DNA from: a virus
Virus record (IMG/VR): IMGVR_UViG_3300025009_000162
Span: 1-47,408 of that record
Reading direction: 5' to 3' (one strand)
Length of the DNA: 47,408 bases
The position numbers and the translations under genes were made by a program. Shown piece after piece: positions 12,394-45,112 of the stretch. The notes under the pieces were generated by a model that saw nothing but the letters and a program-made list of their open reading frames with translations, did not search any database and had not been told where the DNA came from. The number at the start of each line of letters is the position of its first letter. The stretch's first letter is position 1.

Positions 12394-12527
12394 TTTTTAA
12401 TTATTTTAAGTATTTAATAAAAAATTGAAATAAACAAATTTTTAAAACATACCTAAAATAAATATAAAAAAGTTTTTTATAATAAAAAATATATTATATA
12501 TTTCTATTGTTGAATTTAAATACCTTT

Positions 12528-15500
12528 ATGAATAAAATCATCCTATCAAAAGGAAATCAAAAAGTAAAAACAATTTATCATTTAGCGGATATTCATATAA
12601 GATTATTACAAAGGCACAAAGAGTATAAAGAACAGTTTGATAAGTTATATACAGAAATAAAAAAAGATACTTCTGAAGCTATAATATGCGTTGCTGGAGA
12701 CATCGTGCACGCAAAAATAGAATTATCTCCCGAATTAGTTGATTTAACAGCTGAATTTTTAGAAAACTTATCTGAAATAGCTCCTACCTTTGTTATCTTA
12801 GGTAATCATGATTTAAATCTTAACAATCCAAGTAGATTAGATGCATTAAGTCCGATTATTAAAAGAGTAAATTCAAATCAATTATATTTTTTAAAAGACC
12901 CTGGAATTTATAAATATAACAATATTGATTTTTATAATTTCTCTATCTTAGATCCAGAAATTAATACATCATTAAATACTAATTATGAGTTAAATAAAAA
13001 TCAAATTAATATTGCTCTATATCACGGTGTGGTTCATGATAGTAAAACTGAAAAAGATCATACATTAAAATCTAATACAGTTACTTCTTCAACCTTTAAA
13101 CATTATGATGCTACTATATTAGGAGACATTCATAAATTTCAATCGTTAGGTTCAAAAAATAATATTGTATATCCAAGTTCGTTAATTCAACAAGATCATG
13201 GAGAAACATATGGAACGCACGGATTAGTAAAATGGAATATTTCAGATAAAAACAAAATAGAATATAATCAAATAATAATAGACAATGATTATGGATATCA
13301 CACAATTATTATCGATAACAACAAAATAATAGATAAAGATTTAGTAATATCAAAATATCCAAGAATTCAATTAGAAGTAAAGAATACAAAATTAAGTGAA
13401 TTAAAAAGATTAGAGGCAAAAATAAAAAAGAAATATAAAGTTTCTAATATCACTATCAATACAAACAATGTATTCAATGATATAGATACAAGTTCAAAAA
13501 TAGAACAAATAAATAATATTAATAATCCTTTATATCAAAATGAATTAATTGAAGAGTTCATTAAAAAATTAGATCCAAACATATCTACAGACATAATAGA
13601 AGAAATAAAACAAATAAATTCATTTTTAAATTATAATATTCAACAAGAAAATATTTTCCTGCAGAACAATGAAATAAAATTATTAGAGTTATGGTTTTCT
13701 AATTATTTTACTTATGGAGAACACAATCATATTAATTTTGAAAATCGACAAGGATTAATTGGTTTATTTGCTAATAATGCAAGAGGAAAATCTTCTTTAA
13801 TTCAAATAATATTATTCACTCTTTTTGATAAGACCACAAATGCAGTCAAATCATATGATATATTAAATACGACCTCAAAGTATTTTCATAGTAAAATAAA
13901 AATTGCTATAAATGGTAAAGAATATTTTATAGAAAAGTTAGGTGAAAAATTAGAAGGAAGAAAAAATTATGATGATACTGTGGTAGTGTCGACTGATTTT
14001 TATTATTATGAAGGCGAAGAAAAAATAGTGTTAAATGGAGAACAAAGAAGAGACACGCAAAAAATTATTAAGACTTATATAGGAAATTTAGATAGTGCAG
14101 TTTTAACAGCTATATCCCTTCAAGGTGAAAATGGTGGTTTAATATTAAAAAACCAAACAGAAAGAAAATTATTATTATCTAAGTTTTTAAATTTTGATAT
14201 ATTTGAAAAACTATTTAATCAAGCTAAAGAAGAATCTAAAGAAGAAGCAGTAACATTAAAAAACTTTCAATCAAAATCTACTCATCAAGAATTAATTAAT
14301 TACAAAGATAAATTAGACGATATAGTAGAACAGGAAGAACAAATATTAAATAAATTAGAAAGCATAAATATAAGAATAATTGAAATAGAAGAAATAATAA
14401 AAGAATTAAAAACAAATTTATTTCAGACGGATATTCAATTTAATATTGCAGATTTATTAAAGGAAAAAGAAAAATTAGAAAAAGAAAAAGAGAAATTAGA
14501 TTTAAACATAATAACGAACGAAAATAAAATAAAAAATATTGAAGAAAAAACAATTCAAATAAATGCAAATTTAATAAATTACAATTTAGAAGAATTAAAT
14601 AAAGAAGTGACAAATTTAAATAATACAGAAAAAGAAAAATCTCAAATCAATATAAAAATAAAATTATTAGAAAATGATTTAAAAAATCAAAATGATAAAT
14701 TATCAAAATTAAAAGATTTAAAGTATGATGAAAATTGTTCGTTTTGTATGAATAATATTTTTGTGAAAGATGCTATAGAAACTAAAGATAAATTTGAAAT
14801 TAATAAAACATCATATTTAAATTTAAATGTTGAATTAGAAGAATTAGAAGAAAAAATAAAACAATTATCTAAATCAGAACTTTCATTAAAAGAATATACA
14901 GAATTAGTTAAAACAAAAAATGAATTAAAACAAACATATTTGAGCACATTAAAAGATAAAGAAATATTTGAAGGCAATTTAAAATTATTTAACTTAAATA
15001 TAAATTCAAATTCAGAAAATATTAAAACGTATTATGAACAAGAGGAATTAATTTTAAATAATACATCTGTTCAAGAAAAAATAAAAGAAAATGAATTAAT
15101 ATTAAAAAAATACAAAGAAGAAAGAGAAACCTTAAATCAAGAAGAAAGACAAATATTTTCAAATAAAAATATTACTGAAAGTAAAATAGACGAATTAAAA
15201 CAAAAAATAGAAAAAATAAAAAAACATGAGCAAACTTTCTATGCTTATGAATTATATATGCAAGCTATAGGTAAGAATGGAATACCTTATAATTTATTAA
15301 AACAAATTATTCCAATATTAGAATTAGAAGTAAATAATATTTTAAATCAAATTGCTGATTTTAACTTAAAATTTATCTTTACAAATAACAACATTATAAT
15401 TCATATTAGATATGATGATCGACATTGGAATATTTCTTTAGCAAGTGGAATGGAAAAATTTATTTCTTCTATTGCTATGCGAGTAGTATTAGATAAATTT

Positions 15501-15713
15501 AGTTCCAGACCTTCAATTCGTACTTTGATAATAGATGAAGGATTTGATGTGTTAGATGCTGAAAATAAAGATAAGTTAGATAAACTATTTGTATTCTTAA
15601 AAGATTATTATGATTCAATTCTGATTATTTCACATTTAGAAATAATGAAAGATATAATGTCAGATTTTATTACAATTCAAAGAATAGGTAATTATTCATA
15701 TATCATAGAATAG
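12528..15713 (+). CDS. Fused gp47-gp46 (SbcD-SbcC / Mre11-Rad50-like) recombination nuclease
   Basis: About 1061 residues combining both subunits of the Mre11-Rad50 complex. N-terminal metallophosphoesterase motifs: LADIH (~19-23), VAGDIVH (~56), LGNHDL (~88), then YHGVVH and LGDIH. The Rad50-like part follows: Walker A NNARGKSS (~415), long Lys/Glu-rich coiled coils, a CSFC zinc hook (~735), the ABC signature LASGMEKF (~971) and Walker B TLIIDEGFD (~1000). In T4 these are two genes (47 and 46) needed for end resection in recombination-dependent replication. Here they are one chain with no break. The frame is open to a TTG at 12507, but the ATG at 12528 is better placed before the first motif. 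No clear promoter was found upstream. Confidence 0.93.
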   Translation: MNKIILSKGNQKVKTIYHLADIHIRLLQRHKEYKEQFDKLYTEIKKDTSEAIICVAGDIVHAKIELSPELVDLTAEFLENLSEIAPTFVILGNHDLNLNNPSRLDALSPIIKRVNSNQLYFLKDPGIYKYNNIDFYNFSILDPEINTSLNTNYELNKNQINIALYHGVVHDSKTEKDHTLKSNTVTSSTFKHYDATILGDIHKFQSLGSKNNIVYPSSLIQQDHGETYGTHGLVKWNISDKNKIEYNQIIIDNDYGYHTIIIDNNKIIDKDLVISKYPRIQLEVKNTKLSELKRLEAKIKKKYKVSNITINTNNVFNDIDTSSKIEQINNINNPLYQNELIEEFIKKLDPNISTDIIEEIKQINSFLNYNIQQENIFLQNNEIKLLELWFSNYFTYGEHNHINFENRQGLIGLFANNARGKSSLIQIILFTLFDKTTNAVKSYDILNTTSKYFHSKIKIAINGKEYFIEKLGEKLEGRKNYDDTVVVSTDFYYYEGEEKIVLNGEQRRDTQKIIKTYIGNLDSAVLTAISLQGENGGLILKNQTERKLLLSKFLNFDIFEKLFNQAKEESKEEAVTLKNFQSKSTHQELINYKDKLDDIVEQEEQILNKLESINIRIIEIEEIIKELKTNLFQTDIQFNIADLLKEKEKLEKEKEKLDLNIITNENKIKNIEEKTIQINANLINYNLEELNKEVTNLNNTEKEKSQINIKIKLLENDLKNQNDKLSKLKDLKYDENCSFCMNNIFVKDAIETKDKFEINKTSYLNLNVELEELEEKIKQLSKSELSLKEYTELVKTKNELKQTYLSTLKDKEIFEGNLKLFNLNINSNSENIKTYYEQEELILNNTSVQEKIKENELILKKYKEERETLNQEERQIFSNKNITESKIDELKQKIEKIKKHEQTFYAYELYMQAIGKNGIPYNLLKQIIPILELEVNNILNQIADFNLKFIFTNNNIIIHIRYDDRHWNISLASGMEKFISSIAMRVVLDKFSSRPSIRTLIIDEGFDVLDAENKDKLDKLFVFLKDYYDSILIISHLEIMKDIMSDFITIQRIGNYSYIIE

Positions 15714-25563: not shown

Positions 25564-26136
25564 ATGTGGAAAATAGCGAAAGAATTTGAATTTGATTATG
25601 GTCATCGAGTATGGAGCCAAACTCTAAATTGTGATTTTAGTTTAGATAATAAATGTGTATGTAGGCATCAGCATGGACATCGAGGCATGATAAGAGTATA
25701 TTTATCAAGTAAAGAATTAAAAGATGGAATGGTGACCGATTTCAAACATCTTAATTTTGTGAAAAAATTTATAGACGATGTATTGGATCATAAAATGATA
25801 TTAGATACTAATGATCCTGCATTTAATCATTTTTATCCTTTGCTTGCTTTTGATAAAAATTGTGGAGAACAATTTGATAAATTATTTGAATATCATAAAG
25901 AAGGATATTATACTCCGTGGATGGATAACATAATAAAAGAAGACATTCATATTCAAGATGTCTATAATGGATTGGTATTAGTTGAATTTGTCCCAACATC
26001 AGAAAATTTGAGTAAATGGTTATTTGATATTATTTCTGATAAATTATCTTCTTTAAATATAAGAGTAGATAGAATTCAATTTTATGAAACTCCAAAATCG
26101 CAGAGTAATTATTATAATCCCAACTCTTATGAATAA
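25564..26136 (+). CDS. queD: 6-carboxy-5,6,7,8-tetrahydropterin synthase (QueD)
   Basis: 190 residues, a T-fold (tunnelling-fold) enzyme. It converts 7,8-dihydroneopterin triphosphate to 6-carboxy-tetrahydropterin, the second step towards 7-deazaguanine. Zinc-binding His are in DYGHRVW and in RHQHGHRG (~34-41); DFKHL and LDHKMIL are the usual following elements; the late Glu is in PTSENLS and the end is YETP. It is longer than bacterial QueD (~120), mostly by an insertion around 85-125. It works with FolE (30669) and QueE (27016) in this window. Confidence 0.9.
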   Translation: MWKIAKEFEFDYGHRVWSQTLNCDFSLDNKCVCRHQHGHRGMIRVYLSSKELKDGMVTDFKHLNFVKKFIDDVLDHKMILDTNDPAFNHFYPLLAFDKNCGEQFDKLFEYHKEGYYTPWMDNIIKEDIHIQDVYNGLVLVEFVPTSENLSKWLFDIISDKLSSLNIRVDRIQFYETPKSQSNYYNPNSYE

Positions 26137-27015: not shown

Positions 27016-27894
27016 ATGCATATAAATTTATCTACAGAGGGCATTTTCCCGATTATATACGACAGCAAAGGAGAAAAAATATTCGACATAAATCCTAATA
27101 CAAATTTATCTTATGAAGGTAGCGTACAAGGGGAGGGTGCTTTGATGGGTGTTCCGAGTTTATTCATTAGAACTTCCGGTTGCAATTTGAGGTGCTTGTG
27201 GCAAAATGACAAATTTTTAGAAACTTGTGATACACCTCATACTTCTTGGAATAATGAAAATTTAAGATATAGAATTGATGAAATCATATCAGTTATAAAA
27301 TATAATACTAAAAATATTAATCATATTGTTATTACTGGAGGCGAGCCATTAATTCAAGCCAAAGCATTAACTGAATTATGTGCGAGAATAAAAACAGAAT
27401 TTGGATATCATATTACTATTGAAACCAACGGAACAATTTTTTATGAACCATTATTAATGCATGTAGATTTGTTTTCAATCTCTCCTAAATTATCAAATTC
27501 AAATCCAACAAAAGAAAAAATTCAAGAATATAATTCTACATATAATAAGAATATTAAGACAGATGTAAAACATGAAGATAATAGATATAATTCATTATCT
27601 TTGTCATCGTATGTAAATTGGAATAAATTAGAAAAGCAACAAAATAAATGGAGAAGAAGATTACAATTAAAATTTGTTGTTTCTTCAGAATCAGATATTA
27701 AAGAAATAAAAGAAGATTATATAGATAAATTACCAAATATTTGTAATGAAGATATTTATTTAATGCCCCTTGGAATGACTCCAGAAACATTGAATATAAC
27801 TACAAATTTGGTATTGAATGAATGTATAAAAAATAATTGGAATTTTACTGGTAGATTACATATTAATCTATTTAAAAGTAATTTTGGAGTATAA
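27016..27894 (+). CDS. queE: 7-carboxy-7-deazaguanine synthase (QueE), variant cluster spacing
   Basis: 292 residues, a radical SAM enzyme. It turns 6-carboxy-tetrahydropterin into 7-carboxy-7-deazaguanine (CDG). EGSVQGEGALMGVPSLFIR and TSGCNLRCLW are the usual N-terminal signature, and VITGGEP the SAM-binding GGE motif. Cys56, Cys60 and Cys71 would hold the 4Fe-4S cluster. In the usual CX3CX2C form the third Cys comes just after the Trp; here eight residues (QNDKFLET) are inserted, giving CX3CX10C. Other QueE enzymes are known with long loops in this region, so function is likely kept. The C-terminal region is longer than in short bacterial forms. Confidence 0.88.
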   Translation: MHINLSTEGIFPIIYDSKGEKIFDINPNTNLSYEGSVQGEGALMGVPSLFIRTSGCNLRCLWQNDKFLETCDTPHTSWNNENLRYRIDEIISVIKYNTKNINHIVITGGEPLIQAKALTELCARIKTEFGYHITIETNGTIFYEPLLMHVDLFSISPKLSNSNPTKEKIQEYNSTYNKNIKTDVKHEDNRYNSLSLSSYVNWNKLEKQQNKWRRRLQLKFVVSSESDIKEIKEDYIDKLPNICNEDIYLMPLGMTPETLNITTNLVLNECIKNNWNFTGRLHINLFKSNFGV

Positions 27895-30668: not shown

Positions 30669-31310
30669 ATGGAATTATTAAAACATTCAAATGATAACAT
30701 TTTTCTATCCGAAAAAGAAAAAGAACAAAGAATTAAAAAAGTTGAAAAAGCTTATGGCAAGTTTTTAACTGAAATTGGATATGATTGGGAACAAGACCCA
30801 AATATGGCAGGAACACCGTTTAGAGTTGCCAAGATGTGGATAAAAGAAATTGCATCTGGGAATCATAGTGAAGAACCAAAAATTACTGCATTTGATAATA
30901 TAAACAAATACGACGGAATGGTTTTTGAGGGTGGGATAGATGTTAAATCATTATGTTCTCATCACAATTATCCATTTTATGGAAAAGCATATGTAGCATA
31001 TTTAGCTCATCCAGATGGAAAGATAATTGGGTTAAGTAAATTAAATAGAATTGTAGATTGGTTTAGTAGAAGACCACAAGTTCAAGAAAATCTAACAAAT
31101 CAAATTCATGAATATCTTGATAAAGTTTTAGAAAAACATGGTGGCATAGCAGTTCACATTCAAGCAGTTCATACTTGCGTTAGATTAAGAGGAGTTAATC
31201 AAAATGGAGACATGCAAACAACAAAGATGTCAGGTGCATTTTTAGAAAATGATTCACGAGCTCATACAGAATTTTTAGATAAGATACGAAATTCAATACA
31301 TTTAATTTAA
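30669..31310 (+). CDS. folE: GTP cyclohydrolase I (FolE)
   Basis: 213 residues, the normal size. It converts GTP to 7,8-dihydroneopterin triphosphate, the first step of both folate and 7-deazaguanine synthesis. Zinc ligands are visible: Cys and His in SLCSHHNYPF (~96) and Cys in HTCVRLRGV (~170). GLSKLNRIVDWFSRRPQVQE is a hallmark stretch. Because QueD and QueE are in the same window and DpdA lies downstream, DNA base modification is the likelier purpose than folate supply. It has its own promoter. Confidence 0.93.
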   Translation: MELLKHSNDNIFLSEKEKEQRIKKVEKAYGKFLTEIGYDWEQDPNMAGTPFRVAKMWIKEIASGNHSEEPKITAFDNINKYDGMVFEGGIDVKSLCSHHNYPFYGKAYVAYLAHPDGKIIGLSKLNRIVDWFSRRPQVQENLTNQIHEYLDKVLEKHGGIAVHIQAVHTCVRLRGVNQNGDMQTTKMSGAFLENDSRAHTEFLDKIRNSIHLI

Positions 31311-32341: not shown

Positions 32342-35065
32342 ATGTATCAGAACATATATTATAATAGAAATACTAAAATCGTTCATTTATGGGATGATGA
32401 GCAAGGTTATATAGAAATTCCTTATGAACCATATGCTTATAAGAAACATCCTAATGGTGAACATACTTCTTTATATGGAGACAAATTAAAAAAGATTTAT
32501 AATTCTGAAATTGAAAATACTTCTCCCGAATTATTATTTGAAAGTGATGTACACCCAGAAGATAGAATTTTAATTGATTTATACAAAGACAGTTTTGATA
32601 TTAGTAAAAATCATATAATATTATTTCTTGATATTGAAACAAGAACAGAAGGAGGCCCAAGTGAGCCGGAAGATGCTAATCAACCTATCATAGCCATTTC
32701 TTATTCTGTCAATGGTGGGCCAATGACTTGTCTACTATTAAATCAAACTAATTCAGAAACAACAAAATTTGAAGACGGAGAAAACAAGGTAATTTTATTT
32801 GACCACGAATCTGAATTATTAATTTATTTTGTAGATGCTTGGAAAAAAATAAAACCTACCATTATTACGCATTGGAATGGAGATGATTATGATGTACCAT
32901 ATATCATTAATAGAATTACAAAAGTATTATCTATTAATAAAGCTAAAGCATTAAGTCCAATAAATAAAATAGATTATAATAAAAGAGATGAAACTTATAC
33001 AATTGCGGGAGTTAGCAGTTTAGACTATATGAGATTATATAAGAAATATACATTTATTGGTAAACCTTCATATTCACTTGATGCAATTAGTAAAGAAGAA
33101 ATAGGAAGAGGAAAGATAAAATTTACAGGCGGATTTACTGAATTATTTAAAGATCAAAAGAAAACTGTAGAATATGTTAATGAAGACGTTCAATTATTAA
33201 TTGATTTAGATAAAAAATTAAAATTAATTGAATTAACATTATTTATTTGTCACGATGCTCATACTGCATATGATAATGTTTATTCAAATAGTAGAATATT
33301 AGATAATGCTTCAATATTATTTTTAAATTCAAATGGAATAATTGCTCCTAATAGAAAACCAAAACCATCATTAAAATTACAAAGAAATCATTCTACAGGT
33401 GAAGATAAAATATATGTAGATAAAATTATAGATAGAAAAGTAGTTCCATTAAAAGGAGTAATTCAATTAAGAAAATCTAAAACCGCCAAAATATCATTTG
33501 AATATTCTTCATTTGAAGAAAATTATTTTATTTTAGAGTCTTCTCTTGATGAACCATTAAAGAAAGAATGGGAGATGAAAATAGAATTACCCGGTGCATA
33601 TGTTAATTTAGAAGAATCTGGATTGTATGATGATACTTCTTCGATTGACCTTGTGAGTTTGTATCCTTCTATTATTATGACATTAAACATGAGTCCAGAA
33701 ACAAAAATTGGAAGAGTGTTAAATTGGGAATGGGAAATAGAAAAATTATCCGAAATTAAAATTTTTCAAATTGAGTTTGTTGGTGGGATGTTAGAAGAAT
33801 TTTCTTTAGAAAATTTTAATAAATTTATAGAAGAAAGAAAAGTAAAAATTTCTGCGACTGGTATTATGTATGATGGAACTAAAAAAGGATTTATTCCAAG
33901 TATTCTTGAAAAGTGGTTTAATCATAGAGTAGAATCAAAAAATTTAATGAAAAAATATAAGAAAGAAGGAAATGAATATTTAACTCAATTATATTATACA
34001 AAACAATTGACTGAAAAAGTAAAATTAAATTCTTTTTATGGAGTATTAGCATTATCAGTATTTAGGTTTTATGATTTAGATAATGCAGAATCTGTTACTG
34101 CAACTGGCCAAGCTATTATTAAATTTTCTAAAAAATATATAAATATTTCACACGGTGAAAAAACAGCTATATACGAGGATACGGATAGCGTATATTTTAA
34201 ATTACAAAACATTATTAAAGAACAAGATTTATCAAAATTATCAATAGATGAATTTTTAAATTATACCGTTCCGTTCAGTAATAATATAAATGAAAAATTA
34301 AAATTATTTTCTAAATTAATTTTAAAATCTGACAATAATTGGTTAGAATTTAAATCAGAAAAAATTATTAGAACTGCATTTCATCATGCTAAAAAACGAT
34401 ATGCTCTTTGTGTTAAATGGAATGAAGGATTTACCTATACTGAAGAAAATACAAAAGAAGCAGATAAAATATATGATAAAGAAGGAAACTTTTTGGGAGC
34501 ATTAGCAGTAACTGGATTAGATATTGTTCGTTCAGATTTTCCAGAAAGATTTAAAGAATTCATGACTAATATAGTTAAAAAAATATTAGCTAAATTTCCA
34601 AAAGAAGATGTAGATGATTATGTAATAGATTTTAAAACTAATCTCCATAAAGAAAAAATAGAAGATATTTTATTCCCGACAGGTGTTTCAGATGTAGAAA
34701 AATATAAATATGGAAGAAGTAGATTTCATGTAATTACCGGAACTCCTATTCATGTTAAATCTGCTTTATATTATAATGATATGTTAGAATATTTTAATAT
34801 TACTAATTTATCTCCTGTAGGTAATTGGGATAAAATTAAATGGTGTTATTTAAAAGAAAATCCTTTGCAATTAGAAGTAATGGCAATAAAAAATAATAAT
34901 GATAATCCTAAAGAAATTGAAGAGTATATTTTAAATTATATTGATTATGATGCTATGTTTCAAAGTAAATTGCAAGGAAAATTACAAGATTTTTATGAAT
35001 CATTACATTGGGGAATATTACCAGATAGAAATACAAAGAAAATAAATAGTTTGTTTAAATTTTAA
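32342..35065 (+). CDS. DNA polymerase, family B (gp43-like)
   Basis: 907 residues, close to T4 gp43 (898). 3'-5' exonuclease motifs: Exo I LFLDIETRTEGG (~95), Exo II HWNGDDYDVPYI, Exo III YVNEDVQLLIDL. Polymerase motifs: A in SIDLVSLYPS (~435), B in KLNSFYGVLA (~561), C in YEDTDSVYF (~608). The C-terminus reads KKINSLFKF; in T4 and RB69 the polymerase C-terminal peptide binds the sliding clamp, so this tail should do the same with the clamp encoded at 43433. The LicD-like and DpdA-like proteins share this tail. Contiguous with the HD gene upstream. Confidence 0.95.
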   Translation: MYQNIYYNRNTKIVHLWDDEQGYIEIPYEPYAYKKHPNGEHTSLYGDKLKKIYNSEIENTSPELLFESDVHPEDRILIDLYKDSFDISKNHIILFLDIETRTEGGPSEPEDANQPIIAISYSVNGGPMTCLLLNQTNSETTKFEDGENKVILFDHESELLIYFVDAWKKIKPTIITHWNGDDYDVPYIINRITKVLSINKAKALSPINKIDYNKRDETYTIAGVSSLDYMRLYKKYTFIGKPSYSLDAISKEEIGRGKIKFTGGFTELFKDQKKTVEYVNEDVQLLIDLDKKLKLIELTLFICHDAHTAYDNVYSNSRILDNASILFLNSNGIIAPNRKPKPSLKLQRNHSTGEDKIYVDKIIDRKVVPLKGVIQLRKSKTAKISFEYSSFEENYFILESSLDEPLKKEWEMKIELPGAYVNLEESGLYDDTSSIDLVSLYPSIIMTLNMSPETKIGRVLNWEWEIEKLSEIKIFQIEFVGGMLEEFSLENFNKFIEERKVKISATGIMYDGTKKGFIPSILEKWFNHRVESKNLMKKYKKEGNEYLTQLYYTKQLTEKVKLNSFYGVLALSVFRFYDLDNAESVTATGQAIIKFSKKYINISHGEKTAIYEDTDSVYFKLQNIIKEQDLSKLSIDEFLNYTVPFSNNINEKLKLFSKLILKSDNNWLEFKSEKIIRTAFHHAKKRYALCVKWNEGFTYTEENTKEADKIYDKEGNFLGALAVTGLDIVRSDFPERFKEFMTNIVKKILAKFPKEDVDDYVIDFKTNLHKEKIEDILFPTGVSDVEKYKYGRSRFHVITGTPIHVKSALYYNDMLEYFNITNLSPVGNWDKIKWCYLKENPLQLEVMAIKNNNDNPKEIEEYILNYIDYDAMFQSKLQGKLQDFYESLHWGILPDRNTKKINSLFKF

Positions 35066-36140: not shown

Positions 36141-36812
36141 ATGAATTGGAAAGAAGTATATAATAATCGAAAAAATAATTATGATTTTTCGGATGTTTCG
36201 GTTGAAAATTTATTAAAGATAAGTGGATATGATAATAAAAACAGTTTTATATCATATAAAGAATTATTATCTTGGATAAATAATCTAAAAAAAGAAATAA
36301 ACTTCAATGAAAAGAACGACACTGTATTAGAATTGTGCTGCGGTGCTGGAGCATTTATAAAAACTTTCAATCCTTTATGGGGCACTGGATTAGATTTTTC
36401 TGAAGATATGTGCAAAATATTTTCTAAAGCAAATCCTTCTTATAATATAATTAATTCAGAAGCATTATTAATTGATGAAACTTTTGATCATATATTCACT
36501 TTTACTGGATTTAATTATTTTCCAAGCAAGGAATACTCAGAAAAAGTATTAAGAAAAATAATTTCATTATCAAGTAAAACCATTTCTATTTTAGATATTT
36601 TAGATGTAGAAAAGGAAAAAGATGAAAAAGAATTTCGTAAAGAAACAATAGAAAATTATGAAGAAAATTATTCAACAATTTCACATCTTTATTATTCAAA
36701 AGATTGGTTTGAAAAAATATTAAAAGAATCAAATGTTACTTGGAAATATATTCCTGGAATAAAATCTTATCATAATAGTCAATTCAGATTTAATTTAGTG
36801 ATTTATAAATAA
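36141..36812 (+). CDS. SAM-dependent methyltransferase, class I
   Basis: 223 residues. Motif I is VLELCCGAGAF (~61-71), followed by an acidic second strand (GLDFSEDM) and IFTFTGFNYF as the fourth strand. No DNA-methylase DPPY/NPPF or cytosine motif is visible; it looks more like a small-molecule or protein methyltransferase. It sits 5 bases after the T-fold-like gene and 12 before the nucleotidyltransferase fusion, so it may belong to the same pathway. Confidence 0.78.
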   Translation: MNWKEVYNNRKNNYDFSDVSVENLLKISGYDNKNSFISYKELLSWINNLKKEINFNEKNDTVLELCCGAGAFIKTFNPLWGTGLDFSEDMCKIFSKANPSYNIINSEALLIDETFDHIFTFTGFNYFPSKEYSEKVLRKIISLSSKTISILDILDVEKEKDEKEFRKETIENYEENYSTISHLYYSKDWFEKILKESNVTWKYIPGIKSYHNSQFRFNLVIYK

Positions 36813-36824
36813 AAAGAAAAGAAT

Positions 36825-38639
36825 ATGCAAGCAATTATTTTAGCAGCAGGAATGGGTAAAAGATTAGGAAAGTTTACTCAAGAAAATACTAAATGCATGG
36901 TAAAGGTGAATGATATAACCATTATCGAAAGAATAATTAATAATCTATTATATGTTGATATTAAAGACATAAAAATTGTAATAGGATATAAAGGTGATAT
37001 TTTAAAAGAATTTATATCAGAAAAATATCCAGAATTAAATATCACCTATATCTATAATAATGTATATGATAAAACCAATAATATTTATTCTTTATTTTTA
37101 GCTAAAGAATATTTAAAATCTGATGATACAATACTATTAGAATCTGATTTAGTTTTTGAGCCAAAATTATTAGTAGATTTAATTGAAAATAAAAATAAAA
37201 ATTTAGTTGCTGTTTCAAAGTTTGAACAATGGATGGATGGAACGGTAGTCACATTAGATGAAAAAACCACAACTATTCTAAATTTTATTCCAAAAAAGAA
37301 ATTTGATTTTAATGATATAAATGATTATTATAAGACAATTAACATTTATAAATTTAGTAAAGAATTTAGTGAGAAGTATTATATTCCATTTCTGTTAGCT
37401 TATTGTGAATCATATGGAAATAATGAATACTATGAAGAAGTTTTAAGAGTAATAGCTTTTTTAGAAAGATCTGATTTAAATGCTCTAATAGTTAATAAAA
37501 ATCAAAAATGGTATGAAATAGATGACATACAAGATTTAAATATAGCGGAAACATTATTTGCAGAAAAAGATAATTTATTATCTAAATATAATAGAAGATA
37601 TGGCGGATATTGGAGATTTGAACAATTATTAGATTTTTGTTATTTGATTAATCCATACTTCCCAACAGAAAAATTTTATAAAGAAATTGAATTAAATCTT
37701 AAAACTTTAATTTCTCAATATCCTTCCGGTTTTTCTACTCTACAAGTTTTAGCTTCAAAAATGTTTAATATTCCTAAAGATAATATTTTAATAGGAAATG
37801 GAGCAGCTGAATTAATAAACGCATTATTACCTGGTATCAAAAGAAGAACTGGAATAGTTATACCTACATTCGAAGAATATTCAAATAGAATTCCTTCTGA
37901 TTTGTTATTTACGTTTAAACCAAAAACATCTGATTTTAAATGTGGAGTAGACGATTTAATCGAATTTGTCGAAAAATCTAAGCTAAGAATATTAATATTA
38001 ATAAATCCAGATAATCCGAGTGGCAATTTCATATCAAGAAAAGAAGTATTGAGATTATTAGATTATCTTTTAAAAGATGATATCAGTTTAGTTTTAGATG
38101 AATCATTTATTGATTTTGCTGATGTCAATGAATCATTGTTGGATTCTGATATTTTAGATAAATATCCAAATTTAGTGATAATTAAAAGCATATCAAAATC
38201 TTATGGTGTTCCAGGATTAAGATTAGGAATATTGGCTTCTGGAGATGATGAATTTATATCTAATTTAAAACCAAAATTGCCTATTTGGAATATAAACTCG
38301 ATTGCAGAATTCTTTTTACAAAATATTTCAAAATATAAAACTGAATACGAATTAGCATGTGATAAATTAAAAGAAGAAAGAAATAGATTTTTTAAGGAAT
38401 TATCGGAGATTCATTATTTACGAGTTATACCGTCTAATTCAAATTATTTTTTATGTGAAATATTAACCGAGATAACGGCGACTGAATTAGCTTCTTATCT
38501 ATTATCAGAAAAATATTATATAAAAGATTGTTCAAAAAAACTCGGTTTATCAGATAAATATATTCGAATAGCTATCAGAAATAAAGAAGATAATGATTTA
38601 TTATTACATGCATTAACATATTGCTCAGAAATATTTTGA
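36825..38639 (+). CDS. Nucleotidyltransferase-aminotransferase fusion
   Basis: 604 residues, two domains. Residues 1-~240: sugar-phosphate/choline-phosphate nucleotidyltransferase (QAIILAAGMGKRLGKFTQEN, TKCMVKVND, LLESDLVF), the LicC-like type that makes a CDP- or NDP-activated compound. Residues ~255-600: PLP-dependent fold type I, HisC/CobD-like (IGNGAAELINALLPG, INPDNPSGN, LDESFIDFAD, SISKSYGVPGLRLGIL with the PLP Lys at ~456). CobD-like enzymes decarboxylate phospho-amino acids, HisC-like ones transaminate; the sequence does not decide. A fused enzyme that makes and then activates an amino-alcohol phosphate would fit the LicD-like transferase downstream. Substrate unknown. Confidence 0.85.
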   Translation: MQAIILAAGMGKRLGKFTQENTKCMVKVNDITIIERIINNLLYVDIKDIKIVIGYKGDILKEFISEKYPELNITYIYNNVYDKTNNIYSLFLAKEYLKSDDTILLESDLVFEPKLLVDLIENKNKNLVAVSKFEQWMDGTVVTLDEKTTTILNFIPKKKFDFNDINDYYKTINIYKFSKEFSEKYYIPFLLAYCESYGNNEYYEEVLRVIAFLERSDLNALIVNKNQKWYEIDDIQDLNIAETLFAEKDNLLSKYNRRYGGYWRFEQLLDFCYLINPYFPTEKFYKEIELNLKTLISQYPSGFSTLQVLASKMFNIPKDNILIGNGAAELINALLPGIKRRTGIVIPTFEEYSNRIPSDLLFTFKPKTSDFKCGVDDLIEFVEKSKLRILILINPDNPSGNFISRKEVLRLLDYLLKDDISLVLDESFIDFADVNESLLDSDILDKYPNLVIIKSISKSYGVPGLRLGILASGDDEFISNLKPKLPIWNINSIAEFFLQNISKYKTEYELACDKLKEERNRFFKELSEIHYLRVIPSNSNYFLCEILTEITATELASYLLSEKYYIKDCSKKLGLSDKYIRIAIRNKEDNDLLLHALTYCSEIF

Positions 38640-38690: not shown

Positions 38691-39566
38691 ATGAAAGGAT
38701 TAATAGTGGGTCTTGGAATAGGATCTGTATATTTAGAACAATTGAATTTATTAGGATTCAATGTAACGACAGTAGATATAGATAAAACAAAAAATCCAAC
38801 CTTTTTAAATATAGAGGATGCATTGAAAGAAAAATATGATTTGTCTATTATTTGCACTCCAAATTATTTGCATTTCGAACAAGCCAAATTATTACAACCT
38901 GCTTCTAAAAATATTTTAATAGAAAAGCCTGGGTTTGAGTCGTTGGATATTTATAATCATTTTATAAATACTTTTAAAGACACAAAATTTTTCATTGTCA
39001 AAAATAATATATATCGTCCAGAATTAACTTACATAAAAAGTATTATAGATTTATTTGAAAATTCTATAGAATATGTAAGTATTAATTGGTTAAATTCAAA
39101 TAGAACTCCTTATCCGGGAGGATGGTTTACAAATAAAGAAAAAAGTTTTGGTGGAGTGTGTCATGATTTGATGCCACATTTATTACATCTTTTTTATTCT
39201 TTAAATGGAAATAAATTATTAGAGCCAAAAAAAATAAACAAATTTCAGCGTTGGAATTATACTGATGTATTAACAACTGAATATGGAAATGTTAATTCTA
39301 TAAATCCAGTGTATGATGTAGACGATACTTGCCAAATTACTTTTGAAGACAAATTCTTATATAAATTAAATGCTGCTTGGAAAACAGATAAAGAGAATGA
39401 TATCAGTATAAATATTAATTTGAAAGATGGAAGAAAATTTAGATATGAATTTGGATTGTGTCCAAATGAAATGTATGGTAAAATGATTTCTGAAATTATG
39501 TCGGACAATAATTATTCAAAACATATCTTATTAGACACTTGGTTACATAAAATAATAAATTCTTAA
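38691..39566 (+). CDS. Gfo/Idh/MocA-type oxidoreductase
   Basis: 291 residues. The N-terminal Rossmann fold is seen in GLIVGLGIGSVYLEQL (GxGxxS type), TVDID, and IICTPNYLHFEQA. EKPGFESL is the conserved EKP loop with the catalytic Lys, and GGVCHDLMPHLLHLF the catalytic D/H stretch. Members use NAD(P) to oxidise or reduce sugars and related alcohols. It lies 3 bases before the zinc-dehydrogenase-like gene, so the two may act in turn on one substrate. Confidence 0.85.
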   Translation: MKGLIVGLGIGSVYLEQLNLLGFNVTTVDIDKTKNPTFLNIEDALKEKYDLSIICTPNYLHFEQAKLLQPASKNILIEKPGFESLDIYNHFINTFKDTKFFIVKNNIYRPELTYIKSIIDLFENSIEYVSINWLNSNRTPYPGGWFTNKEKSFGGVCHDLMPHLLHLFYSLNGNKLLEPKKINKFQRWNYTDVLTTEYGNVNSINPVYDVDDTCQITFEDKFLYKLNAAWKTDKENDISININLKDGRKFRYEFGLCPNEMYGKMISEIMSDNNYSKHILLDTWLHKIINS

Positions 39567-39569
39567 AAA

Positions 39570-40487
39570 ATGGAAATAAAATTAATGCACAGTTATGGTT
39601 CAAAGGATATAAACAATTATTTTTTGGATAAACCAGAACCAACAGACAATCAAATAGAAGTAGAAACAAAAATGACAGGCATTTGCAGAAGTGATATAGC
39701 TGCGTATAATGGGTGGGAAAATGCAATGCCTCTTGGAATGTTTGGACATGAAGGAATTGGAATTGTATCTAAAATAGGCAAAAATATTAAAGATGTAGAA
39801 GTTGGGGATTATGTTGCAACATGGAGCGATCCGGCATATGGAAAATATTATAATGCAAATTCAAATCAATATGTTAAAATTCCAGAAATAAGTTCAAAAT
39901 ACATTATGCAGCCGGTGGCATCTGCAATAAATATATTTGATAAAACCTTAAAATATATGGAATTTTTAAATTATATAGGAGAACCGATATTATTAATTGG
40001 AACAGGTTTTATGAGTTTAGTTATTGCACAGTTGTATGATAATATTCATGTATTAGGTAATTCAAATAAATCGAAATGGGAAGAAATAAAAATAAAAACA
40101 TATAGTTCTTTTAAAGAATTACCACAGACAAAATATAAAGTCATTATAGATTTAAGTAGCAAGGCAGATAATTATTATAAAATATCAGAAGAACTTGGAG
40201 AAGTAGAAGCATTAATTACATATGCATCTACACCATTTACACCTGTTACCACAAATTTTTTCAATAATAATTGGAATTGTCATACATTTATTATGCCGAG
40301 TCCAAGAAATAAAGATTTTAATTCTATAATGAAACTTGGAGTTGATTACATTATAGAAAACAAATTAAAAACAGATTTTTTATGGTCTGAATCATATAAA
40401 GCTTTTGATTTAGATGATATGAAAAAAGCTTTTGAGGACGGATCTATAAGAAATGATAAATATCTTAGGGGTTATTTTATATTTTAA
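39570..40487 (+). CDS. Zinc-type alcohol dehydrogenase-like (MDR) protein
   Basis: 305 residues, shorter than the usual ~340-350. TGICRSDIAAYNG (Cys and Asp zinc ligands), FGHEGIGIVSKIGKNIKDVE with GDYV are standard MDR elements, and ILLIGTGFMSLVIAQLY the NAD(P)-binding GxGxxx region. The structural-zinc four-Cys loop of many alcohol dehydrogenases is not present. Probably oxidises or reduces a hydroxyl on the same compound as the neighbouring oxidoreductase. Confidence 0.83.
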   Translation: MEIKLMHSYGSKDINNYFLDKPEPTDNQIEVETKMTGICRSDIAAYNGWENAMPLGMFGHEGIGIVSKIGKNIKDVEVGDYVATWSDPAYGKYYNANSNQYVKIPEISSKYIMQPVASAINIFDKTLKYMEFLNYIGEPILLIGTGFMSLVIAQLYDNIHVLGNSNKSKWEEIKIKTYSSFKELPQTKYKVIIDLSSKADNYYKISEELGEVEALITYASTPFTPVTTNFFNNNWNCHTFIMPSPRNKDFNSIMKLGVDYIIENKLKTDFLWSESYKAFDLDDMKKAFEDGSIRNDKYLRGYFIF

Positions 40488-40490
40488 TGT

Positions 40491-41183
40491 ATGGCTACAA
40501 TCACAGATAAAACACTTGCAAAATATGGATCAGAAGAATTATTTCATGATGTGCATCGAGACATGTTGAAAAGATTTTTTCTTTGGGTAAAAGATAATAA
40601 TATTCCGATTTGTTTGATGTTCGGAGGATTTTTAGGATATTGTAGAGAAAATCGAATAATTCTATGGGATCATGACATCGATGTTGGGATATTACAAGAT
40701 GATTTTCATTTATTGACAGACGAAGTATTATCAAAATTACCTGAATATGGATTTGATAAACCAGATTTTTCTAATAAAAAATATCATTATGTAGAAGATA
40801 ATTTTAATGGTGAATATTTTAGAATATATAATTCTAATTTAAAAACTAAATATGAATTGATTGAAATTTTTCCTTTAAAAAATTATGAAAATACGGATAA
40901 TATTTTTTATAAATTCTGGTTTCAATATAAGCAAGGAAAAAAGAAAATATATCAAGATCTAATGTGGGTGGATTTTTATGATTTTAAAATACAAATTCCT
41001 CAAGATTTAGAGGCCGCATTAATGCATCAATATGGAGAAAAATGGCACATGCCAAAGAAAAGTAAACAATATTTAAAAAACATTGATTCTGAATATCAAT
41101 CTTTAATTGTAAATAGATTAAAAGAATTGAAAATTGGACCTTATGAACACTATGAAAAGATAAATAATTTTTTTAAATTTTAA
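40491..41183 (+). CDS. LicD-like transferase with clamp-binding-type C-terminus
   Basis: 230 residues. CLMFGGFLGYCRENRIILWD followed by HDIDVGI (~40-66) is the LicD/fukutin-type nucleotidyltransferase-fold signature (GTLLGxxR...WDDDxD). LicD enzymes transfer phosphocholine or similar groups from a CDP carrier. The C-terminus is EKINNFFKF, almost the same as the polymerase (KKINSLFKF) and DpdA (KKINNLFKF) tails. This points to clamp binding and hence action on DNA, unlike surface-acting LicD. The start used is at 40491; a short A-rich leader follows the previous stop. No acceptor is known. Confidence 0.82.
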   Translation: MATITDKTLAKYGSEELFHDVHRDMLKRFFLWVKDNNIPICLMFGGFLGYCRENRIILWDHDIDVGILQDDFHLLTDEVLSKLPEYGFDKPDFSNKKYHYVEDNFNGEYFRIYNSNLKTKYELIEIFPLKNYENTDNIFYKFWFQYKQGKKKIYQDLMWVDFYDFKIQIPQDLEAALMHQYGEKWHMPKKSKQYLKNIDSEYQSLIVNRLKELKIGPYEHYEKINNFFKF

Positions 41184-41187
41184 TTTT

Positions 41188-42249
41188 ATGGTATATATAG
41201 TAGACATTGAACCTGTAGAAACAAGATATACATCACAATGGAAAAAATATTTCCCTGAAATATTATATGGGAGATATAATTGTGAAGTAACAAATATTGG
41301 AGCAGAAGTCGAAGAATCAAAACAAACTTCAAAAGGAGCCTTCTTAAATTTCGGAGCAACAAATATTTATAAAAGTATTCAAACTCAAAAAATATCTGAG
41401 TTATTTGTAAATAATATCATCCAAGATAACGATCATATTATTTTTACAGATGCATGGCACCCTGGAATAATCAATACCAGATATATGGTAGACTTGTTAA
41501 AGAAAAGAGTAACATTACATGGATTGTGGCATGCTGGTTCATATGATCCATATGATTTTTTAGGAAGAGAAATAGAAAATAAGGAATGGTCATATAATTT
41601 TGAAAGAGCTATATTTTGTTCTTTAGATTATAATTATTTTGCCACACGATTTCATATAGATTTATTTAAAAAAGAAATATTTGCCAATTCGTATGAAAAT
41701 ACGTATATAGATAAAAAAATAGTTTTGACAGGCTGGCCGATGGAATATATGAAGGAAGAATTAAAAGAATATAAAAATATACCTAAAGAAAATATTATTT
41801 TATTTCCTCATAGATTGTCATCAGAAAAACAGGTAGGTATATTTAAAGATTTAGAAAAAAGTTTACCAGAATATAAATTTGTAGTTTGTCAAGAAAAACA
41901 ATTAACAAAGCATGAATATCATACTTTATTAGCTAAATCTAAAATGGTATTTTCTGCAAGTTTACAAGAAACCCTTGGAATAAGTATGTATGAAGGAGTT
42001 ATTTTAAAATCAATTCCTCTTGTTCCAAATAGGTTGAGTTATGCTGAAATGTATCCTTCATTTTTTAAATATGATTCAAATTGGACTTTGAATTTTGAAA
42101 ATTATGTATTATATAAATCACAATTAATAGATTTGATTCGAACCAAAATGGAGAATTATGACAGAAAAGAAGTTCAATCATATTTACAATCATTAGAACA
42201 ATATTTAGAAGTAGATTATTTTAATTTCAACAATTTCAAATATGAATAA
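41188..42249 (+). CDS. GT-B type glycosyltransferase
   Basis: 353 residues. The C-terminal half has the GT4-like layout: IILFPHRLSSEKQVGIFKDL, FVVCQEKQ, YHTLLAKSKMVFSASLQETL and GISMYEGV with the sugar-nucleotide-binding Glu. The N-terminal half (FTDAWHPG, LHGLWHAGSYDPYDF) would form the acceptor domain. The stop overlaps the DpdA start by 8 bases, so the two are translated together. This may glycosylate DNA (as T4 does) or a surface glycan; the neighbourhood favours DNA but does not prove it. Confidence 0.8.
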   Translation: MVYIVDIEPVETRYTSQWKKYFPEILYGRYNCEVTNIGAEVEESKQTSKGAFLNFGATNIYKSIQTQKISELFVNNIIQDNDHIIFTDAWHPGIINTRYMVDLLKKRVTLHGLWHAGSYDPYDFLGREIENKEWSYNFERAIFCSLDYNYFATRFHIDLFKKEIFANSYENTYIDKKIVLTGWPMEYMKEELKEYKNIPKENIILFPHRLSSEKQVGIFKDLEKSLPEYKFVVCQEKQLTKHEYHTLLAKSKMVFSASLQETLGISMYEGVILKSIPLVPNRLSYAEMYPSFFKYDSNWTLNFENYVLYKSQLIDLIRTKMENYDRKEVQSYLQSLEQYLEVDYFNFNNFKYE

Positions 42250-43426
42250 AAATTTTATTTATTTTCCGTCTTTATCTTCTGGAGCGTCTGCTTCTTGGTT
42301 ATTAAAAAATGAATATTTAACTGAAACAGTTTCTTCAAGATTTTATGACAAAGAACATACTCCTCCACAATTTTATCATCCTTATTTTTTGTTAAGTGCT
42401 GGACACAATTATAAAGAATTTGAGTTAAGAAAAAAATATGGATTGGAAGATTCTTTTGTAATAGGAGATAGCGGCGGGTATCAAATTGCTACAGGTGCAA
42501 TTAAATGGGAGAAATCTGTAAGAGAAACAATTTTTAAATGGCTTGAAAACAATAGTGATATAGCATTAAATTTAGATATTCCTCCAAGAAAAGAATATGA
42601 CGGTAAGTTTCAGGAATGTTTTGATATTAGTTTAGATAATTTTAAATATTTTGAACAAAATCAATCTGGTAAAACTAAATTTTTAACGGTATTGCAAGGA
42701 AATTCATTAGAACAATATAAATTTTGGTATAATGCAGTAAAGGATTTTGAATTTGGAGGATTAGCAATTGGTGGTTGCATGCACAATCTTGGAAGATTAA
42801 TTATGGTATTTGCAATGTTGTTAGAAGAAAAAGAATTAGAAAAAAAGAGAAATAATTATATTCATATTTTAGGAATGTCTGGATTAAATGATTTTCTTGT
42901 TATAGAAATGATTCAGAAATTTTTAAATAAGAAATTTGGAAACAAATTACAATTGAGTACAGATAGTTCTTCTCCGAATCTTGCAACTGTTTTTGGACAA
43001 TATTATTATGATGTAAATTGGGATAAATATTCTTTTAAAAGTTTACATATTCATAGAGAATTAAATGATGAAATAGAATTAGCATGTAAATTTCATTCTT
43101 GTCCCGCATGTGAAGGAAGAACATACAAAGATTTTCAAGAATGGAAGACAAAAGATTATATGCATATGACTCATCATAATATGTTTGTTTATATAACTGC
43201 AGTAAAACAGATATATTCTTTAATTGATTCTCCAAAAGATGTATTAAAAGATTTATTACCAAATGATTATTATAATCTATATAATATAATAGAACAAATA
43301 TTTGAAAGTGATTCACCGCTTGCCACATATAAAAAATATGTTAATCAAATAGAAAAAGTAACAAGATTAACATACGCAATAGAAACAACAGATTCAAAAA
43401 AAATCAATAATTTATTTAAATTTTAA
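42242..43426 (+). CDS. dpdA: DpdA-like DNA 7-deazaguanine transglycosylase
   Basis: 394 residues, a relative of tRNA-guanine transglycosylase. Motifs: VIGDSGGYQIATG (general acid Asp ~77), LNLDIPPR, LTVLQGN, GLAIGGC (base-binding GGxAxGG), and STDSSSP (nucleophile Asp ~241). A partial zinc site follows (HSCPACEGR then a His-rich stretch). Phage DpdA enzymes exchange guanine in DNA for a 7-deazaguanine; a tRNA enzyme would be less likely in this operon with FolE, QueD and QueE. The C-terminus KKINNLFKF equals the polymerase tail but for one residue, which suggests tethering to the clamp encoded 6 bases downstream. Confidence 0.85.
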   Translation: MNKNFIYFPSLSSGASASWLLKNEYLTETVSSRFYDKEHTPPQFYHPYFLLSAGHNYKEFELRKKYGLEDSFVIGDSGGYQIATGAIKWEKSVRETIFKWLENNSDIALNLDIPPRKEYDGKFQECFDISLDNFKYFEQNQSGKTKFLTVLQGNSLEQYKFWYNAVKDFEFGGLAIGGCMHNLGRLIMVFAMLLEEKELEKKRNNYIHILGMSGLNDFLVIEMIQKFLNKKFGNKLQLSTDSSSPNLATVFGQYYYDVNWDKYSFKSLHIHRELNDEIELACKFHSCPACEGRTYKDFQEWKTKDYMHMTHHNMFVYITAVKQIYSLIDSPKDVLKDLLPNDYYNLYNIIEQIFESDSPLATYKKYVNQIEKVTRLTYAIETTDSKKINNLFKF

Positions 43427-43432
43427 AAGAAT

Positions 43433-44152
43433 ATGAAAAAATCAAAAATCAGTAACTTTTTATCAAAGTATAATTTAGGAGGAATTGTAGAAGAAACAAT
43501 TTGGACAATAGAAGACAAAAATCTTTTGGTAAAATTTAGAACAGAAGACAAATCTGTAATGGGAGTCGGACTATTAAAAGGTATGGATATACCTAATAGC
43601 GAATTTGGTGTATATAGCACAAGCAAAATGATAAATGCTATAAGTCCATTAGATGAAGAAATTAAGGTAGAGTTAATATCAGAAGGAAATACTTTTACTA
43701 ATTTAATTTATTCTGATAATGATGTTATTAATAAAAGAACTTTAACCGCTACTTCAGTCATTGAAAATACATTTCAAGGGTTTGATATGCCAGAAGATGT
43801 ATTTGATACAGTAATAAAAATAGATGCTAATTTTTTAACAAAGTTTAATAAGATTAAAAATTTAGAATCTGATAATATTGGGATTAAAATTAATAACAAT
43901 AATACTGCTACCTTTATTTTAAATTATAGCGAAAATAATGTTGATACAGGTAAGTTTGATATTAATATTGAAAAAGGAAATACAACGATTAAACCAGTAT
44001 TATTTAAATTAGATGTAATTACCAGAATTTTATCTGCAAATAAAGATTTTACTTCTGGAGTGATTAAATTTTGTGGAGAACACGGAGTTTTAAAATTTGT
44101 GTTTGGTTCTGAAGATATTAATTTTATGTATTTTACAGTTGCATTGCAATAA
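43433..44152 (+). CDS. DNA polymerase sliding clamp (gp45-like)
   Basis: 239 residues, near T4 gp45 (228). Two similar halves (residues ~1-115 and ~120-239) with alternating beta strands, as in trimeric T4-type clamps. Position right before the gp44-like clamp loader supports the call. It ties the polymerase to DNA and, in T4, also activates late transcription with gp55. In this phage it may also hold DpdA and the LicD-like protein by their shared C-terminal peptide. Confidence 0.85.
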   Translation: MKKSKISNFLSKYNLGGIVEETIWTIEDKNLLVKFRTEDKSVMGVGLLKGMDIPNSEFGVYSTSKMINAISPLDEEIKVELISEGNTFTNLIYSDNDVINKRTLTATSVIENTFQGFDMPEDVFDTVIKIDANFLTKFNKIKNLESDNIGIKINNNNTATFILNYSENNVDTGKFDINIEKGNTTIKPVLFKLDVITRILSANKDFTSGVIKFCGEHGVLKFVFGSEDINFMYFTVALQ

Positions 44153-44161
44153 AAATAAATT

Positions 44162-45112
44162 ATGGCAGAAATAAAAAATAGTTTGATATGGGACGTAAAA
44201 TATCGTCCAAAATCGTTCGATGATTATATTCAAAGTAATGAACAATCAGTAGAAAAATTCAAAGAATATATTAAAGACGGCAGCATGCCACATATTCTTC
44301 TACATGGGCCGGCAGGTGTGGGCAAATCAGTTTTGGCAGAATTATTGGTCAATGCAATCGATTGTGATTTATTGAGAATAAATGCAAGTGATGAAAATAA
44401 TGTAGAAACAATTAGGACAAAGATCAAAAATTTTGTTACCACGATTAGTGTGGGCAATAAAATAAAGGTTGTTCTATTAGAGGAAGGAGATCATATCAGT
44501 ATGCAAGCTCAAGGTATATTGAGAGATATATTAGAAAAATATATAGAACATTCAAGATTCATTTTAACTTGTAATTATTATGATAAAATCATTCCTGCAA
44601 TAAAGAGTAGATTTAAAAAAGGAACATATGAAATTAAATCTCCAGGTAAACCAGAAATAGCTAAATTTGTAACTGCTATTATGGACAAAGAAGGAATTGC
44701 TTATGATTTAAATGATGTTGTAAAAATAATAAATAATGAATATCCTGATATTAGATCGATTTTAGGTACTCTTCAAGTAAACATATTAGATAATAAATTA
44801 ACATTAAGTGATTCTATTCTTATTGAATCTGATTATATGAGTAAGATATTATCTATAATGAAAGATAGCAAGGTTAAAAAATATGACGCATATGTAGAAA
44901 TAAGAAAAGTAATATCTGGGTCAAGAGTAAGTAATTTTCAACCGTTTATAGATTATTTATTTAAGAATATAGATGATGTTACAGATCAAATAGAATTGAA
45001 AGCCGGAATCATATTGATATTAGCTGAAACTCAAGTACAGGATTCTTTTAGTATAAATAAGGAATTGAATATTATGTCGGCAATTATTAAAATTTTAGGT
45101 GAAATAAAATAA
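44162..45112 (+). CDS. Clamp loader large subunit (gp44-like)
   Basis: 316 residues, near T4 gp44 (319). AAA+ ATPase: WDVKYRPKSFDDYI at the start, Walker A HGPAGVGKSVLAE (~48), then VVLLEEGDHISMQ (~104) at Walker B, FILTCNYYDKIIPAIKSRF with the sensor Asn and the arginine-finger SRF motif. Walker B reads LLEEGD where T4 has IDEFD, so the usual first Asp is Glu. It opens and loads the gp45 clamp together with gp62. Confidence 0.92.
   Translation: MAEIKNSLIWDVKYRPKSFDDYIQSNEQSVEKFKEYIKDGSMPHILLHGPAGVGKSVLAELLVNAIDCDLLRINASDENNVETIRTKIKNFVTTISVGNKIKVVLLEEGDHISMQAQGILRDILEKYIEHSRFILTCNYYDKIIPAIKSRFKKGTYEIKSPGKPEIAKFVTAIMDKEGIAYDLNDVVKIINNEYPDIRSILGTLQVNILDNKLTLSDSILIESDYMSKILSIMKDSKVKKYDAYVEIRKVISGSRVSNFQPFIDYLFKNIDDVTDQIELKAGIILILAETQVQDSFSINKELNIMSAIIKILGEIK

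Follow-up and report, generated by a model that had tools for sequence, protein, structure and literature searches.

The DNA polymerase, a DpdA-like enzyme and a LicD-like protein of one virus end in nearly the same nine residues, and these tails are probably polymerase-type PIP motifs by which DNA-modifying enzymes, namely DpdA and most likely the LicD-like transferase, are tethered to the sliding clamp. The sequence comparisons and structural models make a strong case for DpdA; for the LicD-like protein, judged from its sequence, the same reading is likely. The three genes, the clamp gene and their neighbours lie in the window, the whole stretch of 47,408 nucleotides that was analysed (IMG/VR record IMGVR_UViG_3300025009_000162), as follows.

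32342 to 35065, + strand: family B DNA polymerase of the T4/RB69 gp43 type (Pfam DNA_pol_B; RB69 gp43 is the best PDB relative by profile)
35036 to 35062, + strand: putative C-terminal clamp peptide of the polymerase, KKINSLFKF, from its likeness to the RB69 gp43 end KKASLFDMFDF
40491 to 41183, + strand: LicD-family phosphotransferase-like protein, ending EKINNFFKF (Pfam LicD, 46.5 bits; cut-off 22.6)
41154 to 41180, + strand: tail EKINNFFKF of the LicD-like protein, residues 222-230, directly past the Pfam domain match
41188 to 42249, + strand: GT-B-like glycosyltransferase (weak Pfam match), a conserved dpdA neighbour without the tail
42242 to 43426, + strand: DpdA-like DNA transglycosylase of the TGT fold (best fold matches are TGT structures; PHROG, Pfam)
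43397 to 43423, + strand: putative clamp peptide of DpdA, KKINNLFKF (F392 invariant in 35 of 35 non-redundant relatives)
43433 to 44152, + strand: sliding clamp (gp45-like) with a predicted PCNA fold (AlphaFold2 model; PCNA is the best PDB match, E 3e-12)
44162 to 45112, + strand: clamp loader large subunit, gp44-like (PHROG clamp loader, E 2e-65)

The tails and gene coordinates given by a preceding sequence-only reading were confirmed, as was its statement that the clamp gene begins 6 bases after dpdA (clamp ATG at 43433, counted from the dpdA stop). That the three proteins have unrelated folds was also borne out by Pfam and fold matches (family B polymerase, TGT and LicD).

The likeness of the three tails is not due to chance. 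Over nine residues the polymerase and DpdA share 8 identities, DpdA and the LicD-like protein 7, and the polymerase and the LicD-like protein 6; the next-best pair of C-termini among the 71 window genes shares 5. None of the 14,001 internal 9-mers in the window reached the score of the LicD tail, and the random probability of at least 7 identities in 9 is about 1e-6 per gene. The C-termini of 1,771 genes from nine genomes were scored with a position matrix whose training set consisted solely of polymerase tails from other phages. Ranks 1-8 were polymerases, and ranks 9-16 were the DpdAs and the LicD-like protein together, followed by a drop. The LicD tail stood at rank 12 of 1,771, after eight polymerases and three DpdAs, where the background rate per gene is about 1.6e-4; the polymerase of the window, which has LF in place of FF, was at rank 30. 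With a second matrix built from polymerase, DpdA and window tails, the LicD tail came first of 5,189 other ORFs, a ranking with some circularity, since this matrix had been trained on window tails as well. Within the window and eight near-complete relatives, the strict tail occurs in most members of only the polymerase (9/9) and DpdA (6/8) families. A general C-terminal habit of an AT-rich genome was rejected, the match rate of other ORFs being close to background. The tail was also looked for on the dpdA-adjacent glycosyltransferase and on a gp55-like protein, and was not seen on either.

The shared peptide fits both the h-x-x-a-a core of the PIP box and the tail of RB69 gp43, whose end KKASLFDMFDF is the end of an 11-residue peptide co-crystallised with gp45; the RB69 residues LFDMFDF align with INSLFKF of the window. 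The hydrophobic and aromatic positions of the PIP core are kept in the polymerase tails as in DpdA. The Gln of Qxxhxxaa is absent: its place is taken by Ser, Thr or Tyr in the window and often by Asn in polymerase relatives, and RB69 gp43 also lacks it. The tail pattern was matched by 127 of 131 polymerase ORFs of relatives, and in the nearest relatives the DpdA tail reads FNKFFKF and the polymerase tail NKFFKF. The clamp gene has no Pfam or PHROG match, and the sequence profiles of clamp and DpdA gave no match in the PDB, so fold comparison was used instead. The AlphaFold2 model of the clamp, built from 59 sequences, has a pLDDT of 94. The gp43 match and the modelled PCNA fold lend good support to the earlier proposal that this tail serves the polymerase for binding the clamp, and three further observations point the same way: the universality of the motif in the DpdA family, its place in a predicted disordered segment, and its change in step with the polymerase tails of jumbo phages.

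Tails of DpdA and polymerase relatives were read by script from IMG/VR scans comprising 80 DpdA loci and 80 polymerase loci. Tailless DpdA homologues, which the sequence-only reading had held to speak against it, were checked for, and the motif was kept in 119/119 DpdA relatives examined, either at the C-terminus or just ahead of a Lys-rich extension. A first count under the strict pattern had given 59/124; tailless DpdAs were rejected after 25 close relatives seemingly without the tail were found to carry the motif internally, for example as VATEFFDF or VIDNFFDF followed by the Lys-rich extension. The loci L031, L038, L040 and others form a DpdA branch with a Lys-rich extension after the FF motif. 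Across 35 non-redundant DpdA sequences, column 388 is 91% hydrophobic, column 391 is 97% aromatic and column 392 is 100% Phe. The DpdA model (pLDDT 89) has archaeosine and queuine TGTs as its best PDB matches, with E-values down to 7e-10. The last 18 residues lie beyond the well-folded TGT body, with pLDDT mostly below 50 (residues 377-388 and 392-394). A conserved core within a tail that is predicted to be disordered has the look of a short linear motif.

The clamp gene adjoins dpdA in most loci of relatives, and in 97 of the 119 loci a homologue of the glycosyltransferase precedes dpdA by no more than 100 bases. With a glycosyltransferase-like gene as the immediate upstream neighbour in most cases, glycosylation of the inserted base is possible. 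The window also encodes candidates for the preQ0 pathway, a gene set that was read from the window only, which may be a fragment.

25564 to 26136, + strand: QueD-like protein, preQ0 pathway (NCBIfam QueD, E 2e-15, below its cut-off)
27016 to 27894, + strand: QueE-like radical SAM enzyme, preQ0 pathway (NCBIfam QueE, E 9e-22, below its cut-off)
30669 to 31310, + strand: GTP cyclohydrolase I (FolE), preQ0 pathway (NCBIfam FolE, E 2e-53, below its cut-off)

Two distant jumbo phages carry tails of another sequence, and in each of them the phage's own polymerase and DpdA again share it; the two tails appear to have changed in step. The polymerase of Vibrio phage 2.275.O ends NNTDLFDW and its DpdA NNNDLFGW; the polymerase of PA5oct ends HFDSLFGW and its DpdA carries FNSLFDVD. 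When the jumbo-phage pattern was searched in the last 60 residues of ORFs longer than 150 aa, only the polymerase and DpdA matched in each genome. In 2.275.O, pol and dpdA flank a gene with a match to a processivity factor family (E 7e-5).

Similar tails were found on other proteins. A DNA methyltransferase of Microcystis phage Mel-JY01 (L231:15373-16677) ends VSENIAKFFNMDKKEN, a polymerase-like tail; alignments with methyltransferases of other phages break off at about residue 418 of its 434, and these relatives lack the tail. A blastp search of Mel-JY01 gave no DpdA, QueE or FolE homologue. An HNH endonuclease of L098 (14065-14784) ends ASKFFNI, the same kind of tail. The gp32-like SSB (L182:4076-4849 and relatives) has AFDDLFN or a near variant of it at the C-terminus in 8/8 near-complete relatives.

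The DpdA and DpdA2 enzymes of phage 9g and the T4-type phage nt-1 (PMC6884629) are likewise TGT-type enzymes, resembling the DpdA of the window phage, which has candidate FolE, QueD and QueE genes as well; however, they do not have the tail. The motif is absent from the 9g DpdA, although its gene adjoins a clamp gene, and from the nt-1 DpdA2. Up to 27% of dG is modified in 9g, and about 0.11% of G is present as dPreQ0 in nt-1. Because 9g modifies its DNA with a motif-free DpdA, and the DpdA2 of nt-1 is also motif-free, modification in general does not depend on tethering; clamp tethering would seem to be a trait of some lineages.

The Pfam LicD match covers residues 34-221 of 230 in the LicD-like protein and contains WDHDIDVG. 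The protein also has a match to NCBIfam cholinephosphotransferase Mf1, below the cut-off, and a weak sequence match to FKRP. It thus resembles the LicD/FKRP phosphotransferases in its Pfam domain; here, it is encoded by a phage near dpdA and the clamp gene and bears a polymerase-like tail. Its gene ends 4 bases ahead of the glycosyltransferase gene that precedes dpdA. Searches of phage records, viral contigs, 53 related records and genome contigs turned up no relative of it. The comparison of tails across homologues that had been proposed earlier turned out favourably for the polymerase and DpdA families, which carry the tail, and had no relatives to draw on for the LicD-like protein. Its upstream neighbours are the following four genes.

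36141 to 36812, + strand: SAM methyltransferase of the inserted cluster (Pfam)
36825 to 38639, + strand: NTP transferase fused to a CobD/HisC-like PLP enzyme (Pfam; TIGR01140 below its cut-off)
38691 to 39566, + strand: GFO/IDH/MocA oxidoreductase (Pfam; homologue in G034)
39570 to 40487, + strand: zinc alcohol dehydrogenase-like protein (Pfam; homologue in G034)

The NTP transferase/CobD-like fusion is a possible maker of a nucleotide-activated amino-alcohol phosphate, and the four genes together (the fusion, two oxidoreductases and the methyltransferase) could supply such a compound. From the neighbouring fusion alone we infer that the LicD-like enzyme might transfer a phosphate group from a CDP-linked donor. 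It is fairly probable that the LicD-like enzyme acts on DNA, as its tail, its operon and the analogy with the tailed DNA methyltransferase suggest for this one sequence.

In one alternative, DpdA is clamp-tethered and the LicD-like protein acts on a glycan or surface structure, its tail being coincidental or serving another purpose. Known LicD proteins do decorate glycans, often alongside cytidylyltransferases in surface pathways (PMC6697681), and the lack of LicD-like relatives for tail comparison leaves room for this role. However, the LicD tail match lies far above background, the gene directly precedes the glycosyltransferase–dpdA pair, and the scan picked out a DNA methyltransferase and an HNH endonuclease as the other proteins with such a tail, all of which makes the glycan role rather unlikely. 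The three tails might also stem from a recent duplication of about 30 bases of DNA without any selected function, in view of the 25-26 identical bases in the last 30 of the three genes and the abrupt drop in identity upstream. Independent codon choice in an AT-rich genome predicts 23.4-25.5 identical bases, so the observed identity gives no sign of a recent duplication and likeness at the protein level suffices, as the sequence-only reading had maintained. The conservation of the motif across the DpdA family contradicts a duplication for DpdA, and such an origin is hardly credible.

The motif could instead belong to the DpdA fold as an aromatic C-terminal cap that resembles the polymerase tail by convergence. 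Its constant alignment position in all members, with or without the Lys-rich extension, would agree with a cap; but the predicted disorder, the occurrence of the motif on the unrelated folds of LicD, methyltransferase and polymerases, and the in-step change in jumbo phages make it very improbable. It is improbable that the tails bind some other partner in the replisome or in transcription instead of the clamp: T4-type phages do possess further hubs that take acidic or hydrophobic C-termini, and the gp32 of relatives ends AFDDLFN, but the tail of the RB69 polymerase is a clamp peptide, the tails have the PIP core, h-x-x-aromatic-aromatic, and the clamp is modelled with the PCNA fold.

In the preferred reading, tethering to the clamp, the shared tail would be a polymerase-type, PIP-box-like linear motif, h-x-x-[LF]-F-x-F, borne by DpdA and most likely by the LicD-like transferase on a flexible C-terminal tether (disorder was modelled for DpdA). 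The tail would dock in the ligand groove of the PCNA-fold clamp and hold the enzymes on newly made or otherwise clamp-loaded phage DNA during modification. The substrate of the LicD-like enzyme would then be DNA; for example, an activated amino-alcohol phosphate might be placed on a base made by DpdA or the glycosyltransferase.

The clamp epitopes of gp43, gp55 and gp33 in T4/RB69 are similar, each being a short hydrophobic C-terminal peptide on a flexible linker of otherwise unrelated proteins, and the C-terminal motifs are interchangeable in T4. In contrast to T4/RB69, the proteins that share the tail here are DNA-modifying enzymes, and the window tail is basic rather than acidic. Eukaryotic DNMT1 binds PCNA via a PIP box (Qxxhxxaa). 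The window motif has the same h-x-x-a-a core and is accompanied by a clamp with a predicted PCNA fold; it differs in the missing Gln, the C-terminal position and the x-F that follows. T4 alpha-glucosyltransferase, which binds gp45 (Sommer 2004; PMC13216743), is a precedent for a clamp-binding phage DNA-modifying enzyme, although the enzyme and its chemistry are different. Its expression, and not gp45 binding, mainly set the share of alpha-glucosylation (PMC13216743). Because clamp binding did not set the modification level in T4, and clamps serve other ligands too, modification directly behind the fork is here something that we infer.

What directs base-modifying enzymes to the DNA of the phage and not to that of the host is a standing question, to which a conserved clamp address on DpdA would be a direct answer for a large group of environmental phages. 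In the library that was searched, no paper connects DpdA with a sliding clamp. The tail could also be used for spotting unrecognised DNA-modifying enzymes, such as the LicD-like protein. As a broader and tentative proposal, somewhat more doubtful than not, the polymerase tail of PCNA-clamp phages might be a modular address gained by any acquired DNA-modifying enzyme (DpdA, LicD-like or N6/N4 methyltransferase), with deazaguanine or glycosylated bases in the DNA of this phage receiving a nucleotide-activated amino-alcohol phosphate from the LicD-like enzyme. No description of an amino-alcohol phosphate placed on such DNA bases was found.

Other genes of the window include two related ORFs (7781-9115, - strand, and 11053-12393, + strand) that resemble TnpB-type proteins by eye and have no Pfam match. 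A single ORF (12507-15713) contains both a metallophosphatase (SbcD/gp47-like) and an AAA (SbcC/gp46-like) domain; it is homologous over most of its length to ORFs in seven relatives, and partly in an eighth, where the ORF is cut.
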